Assembly (NCBI GenBank): GCA_015233135.1
Contig: JADFYH010000009.1
Span: 1 to 64,000 of the forward strand
Reading direction: 5' to 3'
Origin: Deltaproteobacteria bacterium
GTDB lineage: Bacteria > UBA10199 > JADFYH01
Length of the DNA: 64,000 nt
Shown here: positions 14,461 to 54,380 of the stretch, piece after piece
Position numbering within the stretch: the first letter of the stretch is position 1
How the letters are laid out: each line of letters begins with the position of its first letter
Translations under genes and position numbers: made by a program
The notes under the pieces: generated by a model
Databases searched by the model: none
Told to the model about the DNA's origin: nothing
Seen by the model: the letters and a program-made list of their open reading frames with translations, nothing else

Positions 14461-14526
14461 CGCCCCCTACCCCCCTCTTATCTTAAGAGGGGGAACTTAC
14501 ACTCCCTCTCTTAGGGTAAGAGAGGG
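14457..14526. repeat. Palindromic repeat, type A, half element plus a second hairpin
   Basis: Two perfect 10-bp hairpins: CCCCCTCTTA/TAAGAGGGGG (14471-14480 with 14484-14493) and CCCTCTCTTA/TAAGAGAGGG (14504-14513 with 14517-14526), each with a 3-base loop. The left part, CATAACGCCCCCTACCC, matches in inverse orientation one end of the elements at 32774 and 54276. The element supplies the stop codon of the hydratase gene and occupies the whole gap before mccA. Confidence 0.85.
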
Positions 14527-21549: not shown

Positions 21550-22638
21550 TCACCCCGAGAACTGTTGTGAAAAATCTGCTATTTTTTTCTGAATTTTTTG
21601 AATTCGCTGTAGAGAAAGCTGCCCCTGCTGTGAATTTTTAACTGACAAATCTATCCAGGCTTGAACTCGATTTAACACCTCTAAGCACACTTCTTCATAA
21701 CGACATACTAAGACAATATCTCCCCCCACTTCCAAAAAACGTACAGAGGCCTCAGAAATTCCCCATCTATCCGCAATGGCCTTCATATTAAAATCGTCAG
21801 AGATTAGCACCCCTTCGTAGCCCATTTGTTTTCGCAACAAATCGCCAATTATTTTTTTGGAAAGCGTCGCCGGCCATTCACTGTCCAAGGCCGGATACAT
21901 CACATGGGCGGTCATCAACATTTCAATTTTATTTTGAATGGCCGCTGCAAAGGGCAGCAATTCAAGGGTTTGCAGGCGCTTGAGAGCTTGATCCACTTGC
22001 GGCAATTCGAAGTGAGAATCTTTGGAAGTATCTCCATGTCCTGGAAAGTGTTTGCCACAGGGGATGATTCCCCCTTCGCGCAATCCGCGAATCATTTTCA
22101 AGGCACAATCCGCCACCGTTCGAGGATCCGAACTAAAAGCCCTGTCGCCGATAATAGGATTGATGGGATTCGTATCCACATCCAACACAGGGGCATAGTT
22201 GAGGTTGAAGCCCACTTCGCAGAGTTCACGGGCCATGAGTTTACCGATGGAATAGGGATTTATCCCCTCACCCTGACCCTCTCCCTCAAGGGGAGAGTGG
22301 ATTTTCTTTCCTCCCTCCCCCTCGACGGGGGAGGGTTGGGGAGAGGGTGAAAAATGCCCAATCTCCCTCGCCGTCGGAATTTTTGTAAAGGGCTCCGGCA
22401 AACGAAAAACACGCCCACCTTCATGATCGACCGAAATAATTAAGGGTAAACCTTTTTTAAAAGATTGTAGTTCCAGGTTCAGCTCTTTCAACTGGGCCTT
22501 GGATTCGATGTTGCGCTTGAATAAAATGACGCCGGCCAAATCGTGTTTTGAAACAAGGGTCTTGATCCAGTCGGGAGCGGTCAGACCCTCAAAACCAAAC
22601 ACGCATAATGAAGCTGCAGATATTTTGTGGGAATGCAT
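21550..22638 (-). CDS. nagZ: Beta-N-acetylhexosaminidase NagZ with an in-frame repeat insertion
   Basis: 362 residues, GH3 family. LIISVDHEGGRVFRL (67-81), the signature KHFPGHGDTSKDSH (196-209) containing the catalytic His-Asp dyad, and VLISDDFNMKAI with the nucleophile Asp282. NagZ removes GlcNAc from anhydromuropeptides in peptidoglycan recycling. Residues 97-125, between REIGHF and INPYSIGK, are low-complexity (SPVEGEGG, SPLEGEGQGEG) and correspond exactly to a palindromic repeat at 22264-22350. Removing them restores the usual NagZ spacing, so the insertion is probably tolerated in a surface loop. Confidence 0.93.
   Translation of the reverse strand: MHSHKISAASLCVFGFEGLTAPDWIKTLVSKHDLAGVILFKRNIESKAQLKELNLELQSFKKGLPLIISVDHEGGRVFRLPEPFTKIPTAREIGHFSPSPQPSPVEGEGGKKIHSPLEGEGQGEGINPYSIGKLMARELCEVGFNLNYAPVLDVDTNPINPIIGDRAFSSDPRTVADCALKMIRGLREGGIIPCGKHFPGHGDTSKDSHFELPQVDQALKRLQTLELLPFAAAIQNKIEMLMTAHVMYPALDSEWPATLSKKIIGDLLRKQMGYEGVLISDDFNMKAIADRWGISEASVRFLEVGGDIVLVCRYEEVCLEVLNRVQAWIDLSVKNSQQGQLSLQRIQKIQKKIADFSQQFSG
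22264..22350. repeat. Palindromic repeat, type B, inserted inside nagZ
   Basis: Two hairpins: CTCTCCC/GGGAGAG (22279-22285 with 22291-22297) and CCCTCCCCC/GGGGGAGGG (22313-22321 with 22327-22335), bounded by TCACCCT and AGGGTGA inverted ends. It keeps the nagZ frame open and adds about 29 residues. Confidence 0.88.
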
Positions 22639-23287: not shown

Positions 23288-23638
23288 ATGAAAAAAACAA
23301 TTCTCCTCCTTATTCTAATCGCCTTCGCCTCTTGCGCAGGTCGCACTCCGAACAATCATACGGCCGAGAAGATCATCAAACACTACTTTAAAAAATACGC
23401 CAAAAAATATCCCAATTCCGAATTTGGAAGAACTGCTGTAGAGAAAATCGAGATCAGTAGTGTCCAAGAAAACCAGAAAAATGTGGCCCATGCCCAGGCA
23501 AAGCTCATTTTGAGTAATGGGGAACAAGTTCCCATTCTCATGGGTTTTCTCTACAAGGCACCTCTGGGCTGGAGAGCTCAGGGTTGGGAGAAGCTAAGTC
23601 CAAAACTCCAGACCGCTGCGAATAGCTCTGCCAAGTAA
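23288..23638 (+). CDS. Putative lipoprotein
   Basis: 116 residues with a lipoprotein signal: MKK, a hydrophobic core, then FASC with lipid-modified Cys16, so it should be membrane-anchored. The mature part is small and basic, with HYFKKYAKKYP and two short strands (AHAQAKLILSNGE, ILMGFLYKAPLGW). Not recognised as a known family. Its last 101 bases overlap the 3' end of comEC on the other strand. Confidence 0.68.
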   Translation: MKKTILLLILIAFASCAGRTPNNHTAEKIIKHYFKKYAKKYPNSEFGRTAVEKIEISSVQENQKNVAHAQAKLILSNGEQVPILMGFLYKAPLGWRAQGWEKLSPKLQTAANSSAK

Positions 23639-26153
23639 GCCTTGGACTTTTCCATTCCAACACAATTTCACCCTCAAGATCTGTTCGCAGCAATTCAATG
23701 TTTCGCGCAGCATAACGCTCCAAAACCACCTGCCGTGGAAAACCAAAACGATTGTTCTGTCCTACTCCCATCAAGGCAATGCGGGGATGAACCCGGTTTA
23801 AAAACACCTCGCTGGAGGAACTGTTGCTGCCGTGGTGAGGCACTTTGAGTATTGTCGAAAAAAGTTCTGTGCGATTCGCCAAAAAGTCTTCACTCTCCTC
23901 TTCAATATCCCCCGGCAACAGCATCGAAAAATTTTGTGACGTTAATTTTAAAACCATCGAACGATTGTTCACGGCGGTGTTGCTGGATTTTTCCAGCAGA
24001 TTTAACTGATCGGGAGGAAAGAAGGCCTCCATTTTTACTCCTTCCAAATTCCAGGGGATATCCCCTTCTTTAATTTTTTTGAGTGCAATTTTTTGCAAGG
24101 CCAACTCTTTTAAAATCTCCTGAAAACTCTCTGTCAGTGCCGTTTCCCCGTTGTACCACAGCTCTTTGATGGGATAATGCTTCAACAAACTCAGAATCCC
24201 CAAATAATGATCGGGATGCGGATGACTGATGACCGCCACGTCGATTTGAGGAAATTGATTTTGTAATAGATAAGGGAAAAGCACGTGTTCTCCCACATCG
24301 GTCTTCGAGCCCACTATTCCTCCGCCATCCAACAGGATTGTTTTGGCACCCGGAAGTTCAAGCAGCATGGCATCTCCCTGCCCCACATCCAAAAAATGAA
24401 TCTTGATTTGATGAGAATAATGCCTTGTAAAATAGGGCTGAACCCAAAGGAACAGATTCCCCAAAAAAACAAAAAACAGGATTTTTTTGAAATGCTTGAG
24501 CGGAGGAAAAATCAGAAGAAGTAAAAACACATAAGCCGCAATACATTGGCTGGCATTAAAACCAGACACCGAAGACGAGGCCCAGGGAAAAGACGCAAAA
24601 AGTTTGAGAATCTGAAGAGAAATACGACCAAAAAAAACCAGGGCTTTCAGCAGAAACAAACTGGGCAGACCCAGACACTTAAACAACATCCAGCTGATTC
24701 CCAAAGGCATGAGGATAACGCTGTAGTAAGGAACTAAAATTAAATTCACCCCCGGTGCGATCCAACTCAGCTGATGAAATGCATGGGCAAGTAGAGGCAG
24801 CAGGCCTATTTGCACGACTAGAGAGGAGAGAAAAAGACTCACTATTTTATGTTTTTTTGAACTCCTATCTACGATTGTTCTCCCCTCTCCCTCCGAGGGG
24901 AGAGGGCCAGGGAGAGGGTGATCCCGCGTGCACTTGAGCTTCACCCTCCCCTGAATCCCCTCCCCTCGAGGGAGGGGAGACTGTGCACTCAAGCAAAATT
25001 CAACTCTTGGCAAAGCTGCCAGAATAAAAAATATAGACAGAAAAGAAAGCTGAAATGAAAGCTCAAAAAGCTGAAGGGGATAAAATACTAAAATCCAGAG
25101 AGCGGCATTAACCAATATAGAAAGCGCATCTGAATTTTTTCGCAAAAGTACTAGCAAACTCAATACAAAAAAACTCAGGATAGAGCGTAAGACCGAGGAG
25201 GAAAATCCCACCAGATAAGCATAAAATAAGACTGGGATAAAGCTGAAGATGAGAGAAAGTTTTTTAACTGACACATGGAGTAACAAGCGAGGAAAAAGAG
25301 AAAAAAAGATTCGAAACAGGGCATAAAAAAATCCGCTCACCATGGCCATATGCAAGCCTGAAACAACAATGAGATGACTGGTTCCCGTTTTTCGAAACAA
25401 CTCCTCGACAGAATCCGGAATTTTTCTCTCGCCCAGCAACAGGGCCTCTATCCATTCTCTTTGATTGGTGTCCGAAACAGTCTGCAGCTCTTGTTTCAAT
25501 TTTTTCAGAATTTTATTTTTTGCTTTTAAAAAGAAGTTTTTTTCTTCCCCAATTTTTACAACAAATTCGGCTTGTTCCACCCAGGCCTGTACCAATACGC
25601 CTTGTCGTTTAAGGGTTTCCTGGTAATTGGGCAGTCCAAAATTTTTGAAGGAAGTGACTTCACCGAAACGACTGACCAGCTGCACCACATCTCCTTCTTC
25701 CACTGCAGGTTCCCCATTTTGCACAGTCAGCCATACATTCCCCCGCACCTCGCTCACCTCATTTTCTCTTTTGATGGCAAGCGCAGAAAGTAAAATTCGA
25801 AAGGGCCCTGGTGCAATCCCTTCGGGCCTTTGTTGAACTCGAGCAATAAGATAAATTTTGGGTGTGTTTAAATAAGAAGACAGGTTAGAACTTTGTACAA
25901 AACTTTTTTGATTGAAATGAGCCGAGAAATTTCCGGCGAAGAAGAAAAGAAAAAAAATACTAAATTCCCTTCTCCTTGAGGAGAAGATGCCCGTAGGGCG
26001 GTTGAGGTGAGGATGCAAATTGCGGGAGGGAAATAATAAAACCAGAAAAAAGATGGAAAGGCTGAGGGAAATTCTCAGAGGGATTTCACAATAAAGAAAA
26101 CTACAAATGCCAAAACAAAAGCCCAACAAGGGCGGCAATAAAGGTCGCTTCAT
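23538..26153 (-). CDS. comEC: ComEC/Rec2 DNA-uptake channel protein with two in-frame repeat insertions
   Basis: 871 residues. N-terminal hydrophobic segments, an OB-like DUF4131 region (about 85-200), the Competence domain with GTSHLIVVSGLHMAMVSG and several transmembrane helices (about 250-560), and a C-terminal metallo-beta-lactamase domain with IHFLDVGQGDAMLLE, HPHPDH and LKVPHHGSNSS. ComEC forms the inner-membrane channel through which single-stranded DNA enters during transformation. Two stretches are foreign: about residues 44-63 and 388-425, encoded by palindromic repeats at 25966-26012 and 24880-24993. Both lie in loops between membrane segments and keep the frame. Confidence 0.92.
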   Translation of the reverse strand: MKRPLLPPLLGFCFGICSFLYCEIPLRISLSLSIFFLVLLFPSRNLHPHLNRPTGIFSSRRREFSIFFLFFFAGNFSAHFNQKSFVQSSNLSSYLNTPKIYLIARVQQRPEGIAPGPFRILLSALAIKRENEVSEVRGNVWLTVQNGEPAVEEGDVVQLVSRFGEVTSFKNFGLPNYQETLKRQGVLVQAWVEQAEFVVKIGEEKNFFLKAKNKILKKLKQELQTVSDTNQREWIEALLLGERKIPDSVEELFRKTGTSHLIVVSGLHMAMVSGFFYALFRIFFSLFPRLLLHVSVKKLSLIFSFIPVLFYAYLVGFSSSVLRSILSFFVLSLLVLLRKNSDALSILVNAALWILVFYPLQLFELSFQLSFLSIFFILAALPRVEFCLSAQSPLPRGEGIQGRVKLKCTRDHPLPGPLPSEGEGRTIVDRSSKKHKIVSLFLSSLVVQIGLLPLLAHAFHQLSWIAPGVNLILVPYYSVILMPLGISWMLFKCLGLPSLFLLKALVFFGRISLQILKLFASFPWASSSVSGFNASQCIAAYVFLLLLIFPPLKHFKKILFFVFLGNLFLWVQPYFTRHYSHQIKIHFLDVGQGDAMLLELPGAKTILLDGGGIVGSKTDVGEHVLFPYLLQNQFPQIDVAVISHPHPDHYLGILSLLKHYPIKELWYNGETALTESFQEILKELALQKIALKKIKEGDIPWNLEGVKMEAFFPPDQLNLLEKSSNTAVNNRSMVLKLTSQNFSMLLPGDIEEESEDFLANRTELFSTILKVPHHGSNSSSSEVFLNRVHPRIALMGVGQNNRFGFPRQVVLERYAARNIELLRTDLEGEIVLEWKSPRLTWQSYSQRSGVLDLASPNPELSSPEVPCRENP
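24880..24993. repeat. Palindromic repeat, type B, inserted inside comEC
   Basis: Hairpins CCCTCTCCC/GGGAGAGGG (24883-24891 with 24898-24906) and CCCCTCCC/GGGAGGGG (24957-24964 with 24970-24977), joined by GGTGATCCCGCGTGCACTT, a segment shared with the copy at the sufD end (34947-34966). A second GTGCACT lies near the right end. It encodes about 37 residues of ComEC. Confidence 0.88.
25966..26012. repeat. Palindromic repeat, type C, inserted inside comEC
   Basis: CTTCTCC ttga GGAGAAG (25969-25986) followed by a GCCCGTAGGGC mini-hairpin and GGTTGAGGTGAGG. It encodes the hydrophilic stretch NLHPHLNRPTGIFSSRRRE between two hydrophobic segments of ComEC. Confidence 0.72.
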
Positions 26154-26878: not shown

Positions 26879-27394
26879 ATGACAAAAAATCACTCTAAAC
26901 TCCTCCACTACACCTTTTTTGATTCCACCTTAGGAAAACTCTGGATCACGTTACACAAAAAAAAACTCTGCGGAATCTATTTTCATTCCAGCGATCTTTA
27001 CTATTTCCAGCACAAACACAAATATACCTTGAAGGCAATTGTCAAACTTCCCTCAGTGCTGGAAAGAGAGCTGACGGATTATTTTAAGGGCAAATTAAAA
27101 AAATTCCAATATCCCATTTGCTTTTTAACAGGCACTGCTTTTCAACAAAAGGTTTGGCAAGTCCTAACAAAAATTCCTTATGGCCGCACCAAAACCTATG
27201 GAGAGGTCGCCAAAGCGGTAAAATCCCCCAAGGCAGCACGAGCAGTAGGCTCAGCCAATGGCTCTAATCAAATTCCGATTGTCGTTCCCTGTCACCGTGT
27301 TGTAGCATCTAAGTCCCTCGGTGGGTACTCGGAGGGATTGGATATTAAAAAACAACTTCTGCAATTGGAATCAGGTATAAGGTTTAAGGTTTAA
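26879..27394 (+). CDS. ogt: Methylated-DNA--protein-cysteine methyltransferase
   Basis: 171 residues. The DNA-binding part IPYGRTKTYGEVAKAV and the active site VVPCHRVV with acceptor Cys138 are exact for Ogt/MGMT. It removes alkyl groups from O6-guanine in one suicidal transfer. The last codons and the stop lie in a TTTAAGG repeat cluster, so the natural C-terminus may have been altered. No ribosome site precedes the start at 26879. Confidence 0.93.
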   Translation: MTKNHSKLLHYTFFDSTLGKLWITLHKKKLCGIYFHSSDLYYFQHKHKYTLKAIVKLPSVLERELTDYFKGKLKKFQYPICFLTGTAFQQKVWQVLTKIPYGRTKTYGEVAKAVKSPKAARAVGSANGSNQIPIVVPCHRVVASKSLGGYSEGLDIKKQLLQLESGIRFKV

Positions 27395-27460
27395 GGCGTA
27401 AGGTATAAGGGAAGAAGATTTCCTTACCCTGTGCCTTAAACCTTATACCTTAAACCTTAC
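27373..27460. repeat. AGGTTTA-type repeat cluster forming a long inverted repeat
   Basis: Direct copies of AAGGTTT and AAGGTATA on the left arm (27373-27411) are mirrored by CCTTAAACC and CCTTATACC units on the right arm (27422-27460). The RNA would form one long imperfect hairpin. It contains the ogt stop codon and fills the gap to the next gene. A sister element is at 36203-36288. Confidence 0.85.
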
Positions 27461-28380: not shown

Positions 28381-28688
28381 TGAAGAACCACCAAAGGCAC
28401 AATCACCCCACCCAAAGCCAAAATACCAGCGAGGATACCAATGATCATCACAGTATGCCTCTCTCCTTTGGTTTCATAAGAACCTGTATCCAACTCTTGC
28501 GCCTTACCTGAAAAATTTCCTTCAGGCAGATCTTGATAAGTCAGCTCCATTGAAGCCCCCCTCTCCCTTGCTTGCCCGCCAGTCTTTTGGAGGGAGGGAA
28601 GGGGGTGATCAGTCCCTCGAGCGAAAGCAGGGGTATTTGAAAATATTAAAAAAGAGAAAAGAGAAAAGAAAAGGAGAGTTTTTTTCAT
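28377..28688 (-). CDS. Small exported membrane protein with in-frame repeat insertion
   Basis: 103 residues from the ATG at 28688. A signal peptide ends near AFA (about residue 22), and a C-terminal transmembrane helix (MIIGILAGILALGGVIVPLVV) would anchor it. Residues 24-44 (THDHPLPSLQ-type, rich in Gly, Gln and Arg) come from a palindromic repeat at 28555-28620; without it the protein would be about 80 residues. It follows iscA in the same orientation after 12 bases, so it may belong to the iscS-iscA unit. Function unknown. Confidence 0.62.
   Translation of the reverse strand: MKKTLLFFSLFSFLIFSNTPAFARGTDHPLPSLQKTGGQARERGASMELTYQDLPEGNFSGKAQELDTGSYETKGERHTVMIIGILAGILALGGVIVPLVVLH
28555..28620. 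repeat. Palindromic repeat, type B variant, inside a small membrane protein gene
   Basis: CCCCCCTCTCCCT at 28556-28568 and AGGGAGGGAAGGGGG at 28591-28605 are inverted arms, followed by GGTGATC, the same junction found after the repeats in comEC and sufD. It is read in frame. Confidence 0.7.
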
Positions 28689-32773: not shown

Positions 32774-32878
32774 CCCCCTCTTAAGATAAGAGGGGGCCAG
32801 GGGGCGTTATGAACAATTGGATTCAATTTGATCTTATTGACATAACTCCTCCTAACCTCCTCTTAGCTTAAGAGGAGG
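32774..32878. repeat. Palindromic repeat, type A, full 105-bp element between sufB and sufC
   Basis: Hairpins CCCCCTCTTA/TAAGAGGGGG (32774-32783 with 32787-32796) and CCTCCTCTTA/TAAGAGGAGG (32856-32865 with 32869-32878) flank a linker with GGGGGCGTTATG, CAATTGGAT and CATAACTCCTCC. The reverse complement of the element at 54276-54373 matches it along its length. The AGGAGG in the last arm is the nearest purine-rich tract to the sufC start codon. Confidence 0.9.
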
Positions 32879-32889
32879 AAGCTAAGGTT

Positions 32890-33669: not shown

Positions 33670-34938
33670 ATGTCTACATTCCTTCAACAACTCGAAAAAG
33701 ATTCCCAAAGTTTGATGCAACTCTGGAATCCGGAGCTGCGTCAAAAGGCCTACGCGGCCTTTTTGAATCAGGGGCTCCCCAGTACTAAACTGGAAAGTTG
33801 GCGCTACACTTCTCTGCAAAAAATGGCGGAGCTTCCCTTTGAATCGAAATCGTCTGTGCATCAAGCCGAGCTTCCGAGTTTGGAAAAGCGTTGCAGAATC
33901 ACATTAATCAATGGGCAATTTTCGCGCGAACATTCTTCACTCCATTTACCCGCAGGAGTAGAGTTCAAGCCCTTGAGCGAGGCTCTTAAAAATGGACTAC
34001 AGCTTGAAGCCCTTGCTACAACGCCCGAAAATGCCTTGAATAATCTGAATACCGCCTTCTTCTTGGATGGGGCGTACTTGCGAATCTCCGCAAATACCCA
34101 GGTAGAGGAAGTGCTCGAAATCTTATGCATCCAGGATGCCTCGCACTTGCAGGCCTTCTATCCTAAAAATGTGATTGAGCTGGAAAGTGCTGCGTACGCT
34201 CATGTGCAGGAACGTTACATTTCTCTCCATCACGAATGCTATTTGATGAATGCCAGCACCGAAATCAAATTGGGCGACAACGCCGAACTTCATTATTATC
34301 GCAGCCAGGAAGAAGACAAAAAGGCCTTTCATCTTTCTTCGGTACGCGTGTCGCAAAAACGCAACTCCCGCTTTTATTCTTATGGATTATTTTTAGGTTC
34401 CGGCCTCAACCACAATCATCTGCAAAGCAGCCTCAAAGAAGAAGGTGCCGAGTGCAATCTGCTGGGGCTCTATCTTGGCGGGGAAACTCAGCATTTGGAC
34501 AATTACACCTTGATCGATCATGCCACTCCTCATTGTCGTTCCAACGAGCTCTACAAGGGCATTCTGGAAGAAGAGGCCTCGGCCAGCTTTCAGGGGCACA
34601 TTTTAGTGCAGCCTCATGCAGTGAAAACAGAATCGAGGCAGCTCAATAAAAATCTGCTGCTTTCTCCCAAAGCGAGCGTTAACACCAAACCCCTTTTGGA
34701 AATTTATAATAATGATGTGAAATGCAACCACGGAGCCACCATCGGAAAGCTGGATGAAAAGCAGCTTTTTTATCTGCGCTCTCGCGGGCTGGATGCCCAG
34801 GAGGCTAAATCGTTGCTCACCCTTGCCTTTGCCAGCGACTGGCTTTCAGAAATAAAGCAGGATTTACTCTTCAAGGAATTTCGCTGCAGGATATTGACGC
34901 ATTTTTTCCCGAAGACTGTCCTCTCCCCTCTCCCTTGA
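33670..34938 (+). CDS. sufD: Fe-S assembly scaffold subunit SufD
   Basis: 422 residues. SufD/SufB-type beta-helix: LESWRYTSLQKMAELP near the start, AHVQERYISLHH, SEEGAECNLLGLYLG-type strands, HCRSNELYKGILEEEASASFQGHILV and EIYNNDVKCNHGATIGKLDEKQLFYLRSRGL. The final residues (VLSPLP) and the stop come from a palindromic repeat that begins at 34920, so the original C-terminus has been replaced or trimmed. It follows sufC closely. Confidence 0.93.
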   Translation: MSTFLQQLEKDSQSLMQLWNPELRQKAYAAFLNQGLPSTKLESWRYTSLQKMAELPFESKSSVHQAELPSLEKRCRITLINGQFSREHSSLHLPAGVEFKPLSEALKNGLQLEALATTPENALNNLNTAFFLDGAYLRISANTQVEEVLEILCIQDASHLQAFYPKNVIELESAAYAHVQERYISLHHECYLMNASTEIKLGDNAELHYYRSQEEDKKAFHLSSVRVSQKRNSRFYSYGLFLGSGLNHNHLQSSLKEEGAECNLLGLYLGGETQHLDNYTLIDHATPHCRSNELYKGILEEEASASFQGHILVQPHAVKTESRQLNKNLLLSPKASVNTKPLLEIYNNDVKCNHGATIGKLDEKQLFYLRSRGLDAQEAKSLLTLAFASDWLSEIKQDLLFKEFRCRILTHFFPKTVLSPLP

Positions 34939-34966
34939 GGGGAGAGGGTGATCTCGAGTGCACTTA
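34920..34966. repeat. Palindromic repeat, type B, at the sufD-sufS junction
   Basis: CCCTCTCCC/GGGAGAGGG (34926-34934 with 34940-34948) around a TTGAG loop that contains the sufD stop, followed by GGTGATCTCGAGTGCACTT, the same tail as in the comEC copy. Confidence 0.88.
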
Positions 34967-34975
34967 GGTACCACC

Positions 34976-36196
34976 ATGACTCTTAACATTCAAAAAATCC
35001 GAAAAGACTTCCCTATTCTTTCCCAAATCATTCGTGGCAAACCCTTGGTGTATCTGGACAATGCCGCGACTACTCAAAAACCCCAAGTGGTTTTGGATCG
35101 CCTCACTCAATACTATGAAAAAGAAAATGCCAACATCCACCGCGGGGTACATTTTTTAAGTGAACGCGCCACCGAGGAATATGAAAAAGCCCGGCGTTTC
35201 ATCCAGAAATTTTTAAACGCAAAATTTCCTCATGAAATTATTTTCACCCGAGGCACCACAGAAGGAATCAATTTAATCGCTTCGAGTTTTGGAAAAAAAT
35301 TTATCCGTGAGGGGGATGAAATCCTCATCTCGGCCCTGGAGCATCATTCCAACATCGTCCCCTGGCAAATACTTTGTGAAGAAAAAGGCGCGAAGCTGAA
35401 AGTAATCCCCATCAACCTGCAGGGCGAAATTATTTTTGAGGAATTCGAAAAATTACTCACTCACAAAGTGAAGCTGCTTTCGCTGCTTTATATCTCCAAT
35501 GCCTTGGGGACTGTAAACCCCGTCAAAAAAATGATTAAAAAGGCCCATGAAAAAAACATCCCCGTATTAATAGACGGTGCGCAGTCTACAGCGCATTTGA
35601 AAGTGGATGTTCAGGCCTTGGATTGCGATTTCTACGCGTTTTCGGGTCATAAAACCTTTGGCCCCACTGGAATTGGGGTGCTCTACGGAAAAGAAAAATG
35701 GCTGGAAGAAATCCCTCCTTATCAAGGCGGAGGGGATATGATTGCCTCGGTGAGTTTTGAAAAAACCACTTACAATGTTCTTCCCTATAAATTTGAGGCA
35801 GGCACCCCCAATATTGCCGGAGCAATTGCCCTGCAACCTGCCTTGGAATATCTTGAGAATTTGGGTTTGGACCAGATTGCCAATCATGAGGCAGGGCTTT
35901 TATCTTATGCCATTCAGGAAGTTTCAAAAATTGACCAATTGAGATTCATAGGACAGGCCAAAGAAAAAGCGAGCGTCCTGTCTTTTATTTTTGAGGACAT
36001 ACACCCTCACGATATAGGCACCGTGCTGGATAGCGAAGGAATTGCCATTCGCACCGGTCATCATTGCGCCATGCCCGTGATGACTTTCTTTAAAGTGCCG
36101 GCCACAGCCAGGGCCTCTTTTGCGTTCTACAACACGCGCAAAGAAGTGGATATCCTGGTGAAGGGTTTGGAAAAAGTTAGGAAAGTTTTTAGTTAA
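34976..36196 (+). CDS. sufS: Cysteine desulfurase SufS
   Basis: 406 residues from the ATG at 34976; an in-frame ATG at 34958 lies inside the repeat and is rejected. Group II signature: YLDNAATTQKPQVVLDRL, HRGVHFLSERATEEYE, ALEHHSNIVPWQIL, YAFSGHKTFGPTGIGVLYGK with the PLP Lys, FEAGTPNIAGAIAL, and RTGHHCAMPVM with the catalytic Cys. It provides sulfur to SufU and SufBCD. Confidence 0.95.
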   Translation: MTLNIQKIRKDFPILSQIIRGKPLVYLDNAATTQKPQVVLDRLTQYYEKENANIHRGVHFLSERATEEYEKARRFIQKFLNAKFPHEIIFTRGTTEGINLIASSFGKKFIREGDEILISALEHHSNIVPWQILCEEKGAKLKVIPINLQGEIIFEEFEKLLTHKVKLLSLLYISNALGTVNPVKKMIKKAHEKNIPVLIDGAQSTAHLKVDVQALDCDFYAFSGHKTFGPTGIGVLYGKEKWLEEIPPYQGGGDMIASVSFEKTTYNVLPYKFEAGTPNIAGAIALQPALEYLENLGLDQIANHEAGLLSYAIQEVSKIDQLRFIGQAKEKASVLSFIFEDIHPHDIGTVLDSEGIAIRTGHHCAMPVMTFFKVPATARASFAFYNTRKEVDILVKGLEKVRKVFS

Positions 36197-36202
36197 AGAG
36201 GC

Positions 36203-36288
36203 AGGTTTAAGGTTTAAGGTTTAAGGTTTAAGGTTTAAGGGTGTGTCTTTCCCTTATACCATAAACCTTATACCTTAAACCTTATCCC
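36203..36288. repeat. AGGTTTA tandem repeat and inverted arm between sufS and sufU
   Basis: Five head-to-tail AGGTTTA units (36203-36237) are followed by an inverted arm of CCTTATACC, ATAAACC and CCTTAAACC units (36251-36287). It would fold into one hairpin in the suf message. It is related to the element at 27373-27460. Confidence 0.85.
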
Positions 36289-36295
36289 TCTACCC

Positions 36296-36766
36296 ATGGA
36301 ACTCCGAGATCTCTATCAGGAAGTGATTTTAGATCACAACAAGCATCCTCGTAATTTTAATAAGGCCATCCCCGCCAATTTAAAAGCGGAAGGCTTTAAT
36401 CCTTTGTGTGGAGACCACATCACGGTACTGCTGCAAATAAAAAACAACAAAATTTGCGACATCAGTTTTGAAGGATCGGGCTGCGCCATTTCCAAGGCCT
36501 CCAGCTCCATGATGACTGAAGCACTAATCGGAAAAAGCAAGGAAGAAGCCCTCAAACTCTTTGAGTCCTTCCATGCCATGCTGATGAGCAATTCGGCAGA
36601 AACTCTCCCCGAAAATCTGGGGAAACTTGCAGTTTTTTCCGGGGTGTGGGAGTTTCCGGCCCGCGTGAAATGTGCTTCTCTCGCCTGGCATGCCGTGAAA
36701 TCGGCCCTTGAAGGAAAAGGCGAATGCGTGACCACTGAAGAAGCCGATATGAGAGAAGGAGCTTAA
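36296..36766 (+). CDS. sufU: SufU-type scaffold or sulfur-transfer protein
   Basis: 156 residues. MELRDLYQEVILDHNKHPRN is the IscU/SufU start; the conserved ligands are Cys38 and Asp40 (LCGDHITV), Cys63 (GSGCAISKASSSMM) and Cys126 (VKCASLAW). The insertion between the second and third Cys (ESFHAMLMSNSAETLPENLGKL) marks the SufU rather than IscU subgroup. In Firmicutes SufU is a zinc-dependent sulfur shuttle for SufS; that role is likely here. Confidence 0.92.
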   Translation: MELRDLYQEVILDHNKHPRNFNKAIPANLKAEGFNPLCGDHITVLLQIKNNKICDISFEGSGCAISKASSSMMTEALIGKSKEEALKLFESFHAMLMSNSAETLPENLGKLAVFSGVWEFPARVKCASLAWHAVKSALEGKGECVTTEEADMREGA

Positions 36767-54275: not shown

Positions 54276-54373
54276 CTCCTCCTCTTAAGCTAAGAGGAGG
54301 ATGGGAGGAGTTATGATCAATTTGCATCCAATTGCCATAACGCCCCCTGACCCCTCTTAGCTTAAGAGGGGGA
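54276..54373. repeat. Palindromic repeat, type A, full element between rpsJ and rplC
   Basis: Hairpins CCTCCTCTTA/TAAGAGGAGG (54278-54287 with 54291-54300) and CCCCTCTTA/TAAGAGGGG (54351-54359 with 54363-54371) joined by GGGAGGAGTTATGATC, CCAATTG and CATAACGCCCCCTGA. It is the reverse complement of the sufB-sufC element with a few base differences, and nearly fills the 125-base gap. Confidence 0.9.
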
Positions 54374-54380
54374 ATTTATA

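Follow-up and report, generated by a model that had tools for sequence, protein, structure and literature searches.

The nagZ gene of the window (the whole 64-kb stretch of DNA that was analysed) carries an in-frame palindromic element that, judged by its sequence, is a copy of the BoxC or G/C-rich triplex-motif (TM) repeat. The nagZ case is one example of something that occurs across the genome and across the class. Tolerated selfish DNA is the preferred explanation (probability about 0.85): a dispersed palindrome of the BoxC/TM kind would have spread, landed in nagZ and been translated as a loop.

nagZ (21550-22638, minus strand) encodes a 362-residue GH3 beta-N-acetylhexosaminidase, assigned with Pfam (PF00933, E=1e-75) and by comparison with PDB entries by sequence and by fold. 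Codons 97-125 of this reading frame correspond exactly to positions 22264-22350 and encode the 29 residues SPSPQPSPVEGEGGKKIHSPLEGEGQGEG. The 87-bp insert (minus strand) is an inverted pair of G/C-rich palindromic BoxC/TM units. Unit 1 (22265-22297, minus strand) has the minus-strand sequence CTCTCCCCTTGAGGGAGAGGGTCAGGGTGAGGG, reads ...SPLEGEGQGEG and matches GGGAGAGGGNNNGGGNGAGGG exactly. Unit 2 is inverted (22310-22347, plus strand; CCTCCCTCCCCCTCGACGGGGGAGGGTTGGGGAGAGGG), reads SPQPSPVEGEGG on the minus strand and has one mismatch to the unit core. The original prediction of an in-frame palindromic repeat inside nagZ, between conserved NagZ flanks and within an open frame, was thus confirmed. 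Its description as a double hairpin holds in that both halves are palindromic, but the RNA fold favoured for the insert is one long hairpin formed from both halves, not two separate ones. RNA folding gave -58.9 kcal/mol (z -4.1) for the plus strand of the insert and -63.7 kcal/mol (z -4.6) for the sense strand with short flanks, each matched by 0 of 200 shuffles.

The spacer between the conserved flanks was compared among NagZ homologues. It measures 36 aa here. Within the class, 21 of 29 sequences (of which one is an incorrectly called ORF) have a spacer of 14 aa, and in other lineages 48 of 57 sequences have one of 10 aa. About 7 host residues are left in the spacer, so that NagZ has a net gain of some 22-26 aa compared with relatives; the 29 residues expected earlier are all encoded, but they overstate what was added. 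Homologues that lack the repeat and still have the same residues had been named as the observation that would speak against an insertion; in the aligned stretches, the repeat-derived residues occurred in none of the 29 same-class sequences, the 57 sequences from other lineages or the PDB chains. Columns invariant among homologues are retained. NagZ alone retrieved nothing in a contig search; 80 homologues were obtained when an alignment was used as the query. Structure modelling was performed with AlphaFold using a 58-sequence alignment (mean pLDDT 91.7). As a structure model had been expected to reveal, the insert appears as a low-confidence segment in an otherwise confident fold: over residues 101-120, which lie between helices 90-95 and 128-141, the block means of pLDDT are only 60 and 51. 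The loop is accordingly predicted to be flexible by the model.

The unit plan, CCCTCTCCC-loop-GGGAGAGGG-NNN-GGGTGAGGG, is the same as that of the TM motif in Table 1 of PMC4666352 (Holder et al. 2015), where the G/C-rich triplex motif is connected to BoxC; TM_ECO no. 2 of that study served as comparison for unit 1. Unit 1 contains the exact 21-bp core and unit 2 a core with one mismatch. As cited in PMC4666352, Hoyne et al. 2000 dealt with potential intrastrand triplex or BoxC elements. The second loops of the nagZ copy are TCA and TTG, and the BoxC/TM types are defined by TTA (type A) and CCG (type B); TTA is common in other copies of the host genome, where CCG is also present. Of 5,426 E. 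coli genomes, 4,278 had BLAST matches to the repeat. The matches with the best coverage overlapped no annotated feature, and some others reached gene ends. BoxC/TM repeats and the repeat described here share a nearly identical unit, an occurrence as singles and inverted pairs, and numerous copies per genome. In E. coli K-12, the 23 TM copies are reported to be intergenic without exception and to include five inverted pairs (PMC4666352). This placement is a property reported for K-12 and not part of the sequence definition; it does not apply here, as nagZ and 25 other clusters (26 of 88) lie deep in genes and in frame. Exact cores in the host genome are about four times as numerous as K-12 BoxC/TM copies. 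An Rfam scan of the window gave no match, and a repeat search over 600 bp did not report the nagZ palindrome pair.

Within the window, the 9-mer CCCTCTCCC occurs 8 times versus 0.5 expected, and the host genome contains 93 exact cores (209 with up to two mismatches); the nagZ repeat is therefore not a chance palindrome. A second in-frame copy (24880-24980, minus strand) is situated inside comEC (ORF 23538-26153) and consists of two palindromes that face each other across a spacer containing GTGCACT; the Pfam Competence domain runs across it. A short, apparently intergenic palindromic copy (34924-34950, plus strand; family D4) has the stretch GGGAGAGGGTGATCnCGnGTGCACTT in common with the comEC copy, and a weak, possibly degenerate copy (28559-28608, plus strand) retains a single CCCTCTCCC arm. 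Arrays of GGTTTAAGG-like repeats with 14-bp spacing, followed by their own reverse complement, were observed at 27358-27459 and 36188-36298 (families D1 and D2), and another small palindromic family, CCCCTCTTAnCTTAAGAGGGGGAA, has three copies at 14472-14499, 32857-32884 and 54351-54378 (family D3).

For the genome census, 63 stretches around cores of the 2.61-Mb host genome (64-contig draft, 98% complete) were analysed together with the window, yielding 88 clusters that contain an exact core. Because of the near mirror symmetry of the unit, a reversed-pattern control was invalid for the core search. Intergenic positions account for 54 clusters; another 26 are located 40 codons or more within a gene, 5 are close to a gene end and 3 span one. 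All 26 deep intragenic clusters are read through in frame. By the same simple gene caller, 81% of the census DNA is coding, so that genic copies are fewer than chance placement predicts, yet far from zero. About 25 decorated genes were identified by Pfam. They include the repair genes uvrA (two sites), uvrC, mutL and an HhH-GPD glycosylase, leuS (a clear site and, in addition, a purine-rich one), enolase, metH (three sites), ATP sulfurylase, RNase E/G, pdxA, ddl, pyruvate dehydrogenase E1, an aminotransferase, a nucleotidyltransferase, a CN-hydrolase and comEC of the window. Alignment with solved structures located extra residues in UvrA (about 29 aa at 242-270, and another stretch near 471-511), LeuRS (365-404 and 560-595), ATP sulfurylase (near 105-120) and enolase (about 13 aa).

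Exact units in genes use five of the six possible readings and give unrelated peptides; the thing repeated is therefore the DNA and not a peptide. Loop triplets were counted by reading. In the reading in which TTA would make TAG, 0 of 9 units have it; in the one in which either TTA or TCA would produce a stop, all three units have TTG. Outside deep gene positions, TTA and TCA together account for 52 of 64 loops. The absence of stop triplets fits selection for open frames; the count is in part circular, since an open frame was the means of recognising in-gene copies.

Ten elements between same-strand genes were checked for split genes by testing their flanks with Pfam, and none was apparent. 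In seven pairs both flanks were identified and proved to be different genes or subunits each time (secD/secF, two ABC transporter pairs, lepA/lepB, ATP synthase beta/epsilon, argH/decarboxylase and class II tRNA synthetase/FtsX-type permease); in the remaining three, one or both flanks were without Pfam match. Many non-genic copies occupy such short same-strand gaps, for example those of secD-secF, lepA-lepB and ATP synthase beta-epsilon, where they could influence mRNA processing.

Among 46 genomes of the class, 29 have the exact core, and the host genome is one of them. Elsewhere in the class, the repeat lies in frame within ligA, carB and leuA (genome G029), in the PDH E2 linker, ribD (two sites), uracil-DNA glycosylase and a GMC oxidoreductase (G037), in glmS (G014) and in a CN-hydrolase (G042). 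The G042 CN-hydrolase insert is in a different sequence context from that of the host-genome CN-hydrolase, which points to separate insertions.

A mobilising enzyme for the repeat was not found in the host genome. A Y1 transposase was considered as mover but found no support (sole weak match of 25.4 bits; no unit arms within 3.2 kb around it). The repeat pair can be carried, because about 18 copies in the host genome sit as the core of a MITE of about 207 bp with inverted ends TTGAGTTCCGCAGATTTTA / TAAAATCTGCGGAACTCAA and target duplications of mostly 6-9 bp. The nagZ copy is without these ends, and inspection of 22255-22360 by eye revealed neither terminal inverted repeats nor a target-site duplication.

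Among known systems, the Rickettsia palindromic elements (RPE) and Wolbachia coding palindromes (Ogata et al., in PMC2229807) resemble the present case: they are in frame in many unrelated core genes, use different frames and add residues missing in homologues. The same is found here, as several unrelated genes contain the palindromic repeat in frame and their homologues lack it. The bacterial lineage differs from that of RPE, and so probably does the repeat sequence, the unit being of the BoxC/TM kind. For RPE, expressed proteins have been demonstrated and an RPE-bearing guanylate kinase is still active (PMC2229807), whereas for the insert described here an expressed protein is predicted from the gene. 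Intragenic GTAG/CGTC REPs (PMC3733652) are likewise short palindromes arranged as singles and inverted pairs, some of which lie inside genes, code for 20-30 aa and have repair genes among their hosts; unlike these, the present unit is without the GTAG/CGTC tag, and no tyrosine transposase flanked by units was found. The Cod-2 stem-loop repeats (PMC2267715) are a different family, and that study lists E. coli BoxC separately from Cod-2 and without a genic class. No earlier report of translated BoxC/TM copies was found in the open-access literature, which does not prove absence. By analogy, the mode of action would be RPE-like or intragenic-REP-like, with a different repeat in a different lineage.

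On the preferred explanation, a dispersed BoxC/TM palindrome would spread through the genome, presumably by insertion, and land in nagZ. The copy would survive there since it preserves the frame, has no stop in the frame of nagZ and occupies a tolerant spacer. Transcription and translation would then turn it into a loop rich in Gly, Pro and Glu, without disruption of the TIM-barrel fold. We infer that the insert is translated into protein and is near-neutral for the enzyme. The original prediction had called the element a direct example of a repeat creating new protein sequence; this is upheld at the level of DNA and gene, but "direct" is too strong, and new sequence is not the same as new function.

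A new function of the NagZ loop is not likely. Co-option, in which the inserted loops would serve binding, regulation or stability and be kept by selection on the peptide, could draw on the persistence of inserts in core genes, in many genes at once, and on the number of repair proteins decorated (uvrA, uvrC, mutL and HhH-GPD here, ligA and uracil-DNA glycosylase elsewhere; compare other REP families in PMC3733652). This repair excess is weak, however (3-4 of the roughly 25 decorated genes; P about 0.001-0.13, varying with a gene share that was guessed). Since readings vary by gene with unrelated peptides, homologues manage without the residues and the NagZ insert is modelled at low confidence, co-option is considered very unlikely. 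Removal of the segment at the RNA level or skipping by the ribosome would yield a protein without it, for which the very stable hairpin predicted in nagZ mRNA might be an indication. Such a process could operate without an open, in-phase frame, but every deep intragenic copy found was open and in phase (a partly circular observation), and 0 of 10 elements between genes resembled an interruption with stop or frameshift; this route is therefore given hardly any credence. Just as improbable is a decaying nagZ or a misassembly of the repeat into it. Repeats can mislead assemblies, and the genome is a 64-contig draft, but the columns invariant among homologues are kept, the NagZ model is confident, and the same in-frame pattern recurs in normally essential genes (leuS, enolase) and in several other genomes.

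Tolerated selfish DNA in nagZ may belong to a proteome-wide invasion by coding palindromes independent of that in Rickettsia, a wider reading that is only slightly favoured. In this uncultured bacterial class, the BoxC/triplex repeat would then be mobile now or have been so recently and would enter genes and spacers alike, with only frame-preserving, stop-free copies at tolerant sites surviving, and repeat-derived loops would be present in dozens of core enzymes, including several DNA-repair proteins. BoxC/TM has been described as intergenic structural DNA; here it would also be a source of new protein segments in core enzymes, provided that the copies are translated. As the lineage is unrelated to Rickettsia, the tolerance of proteins towards selfish insertions becomes a more general question. 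With many copies in several frames, the genome offers a natural insertion experiment on where folds accept roughly 13-40 extra residues.
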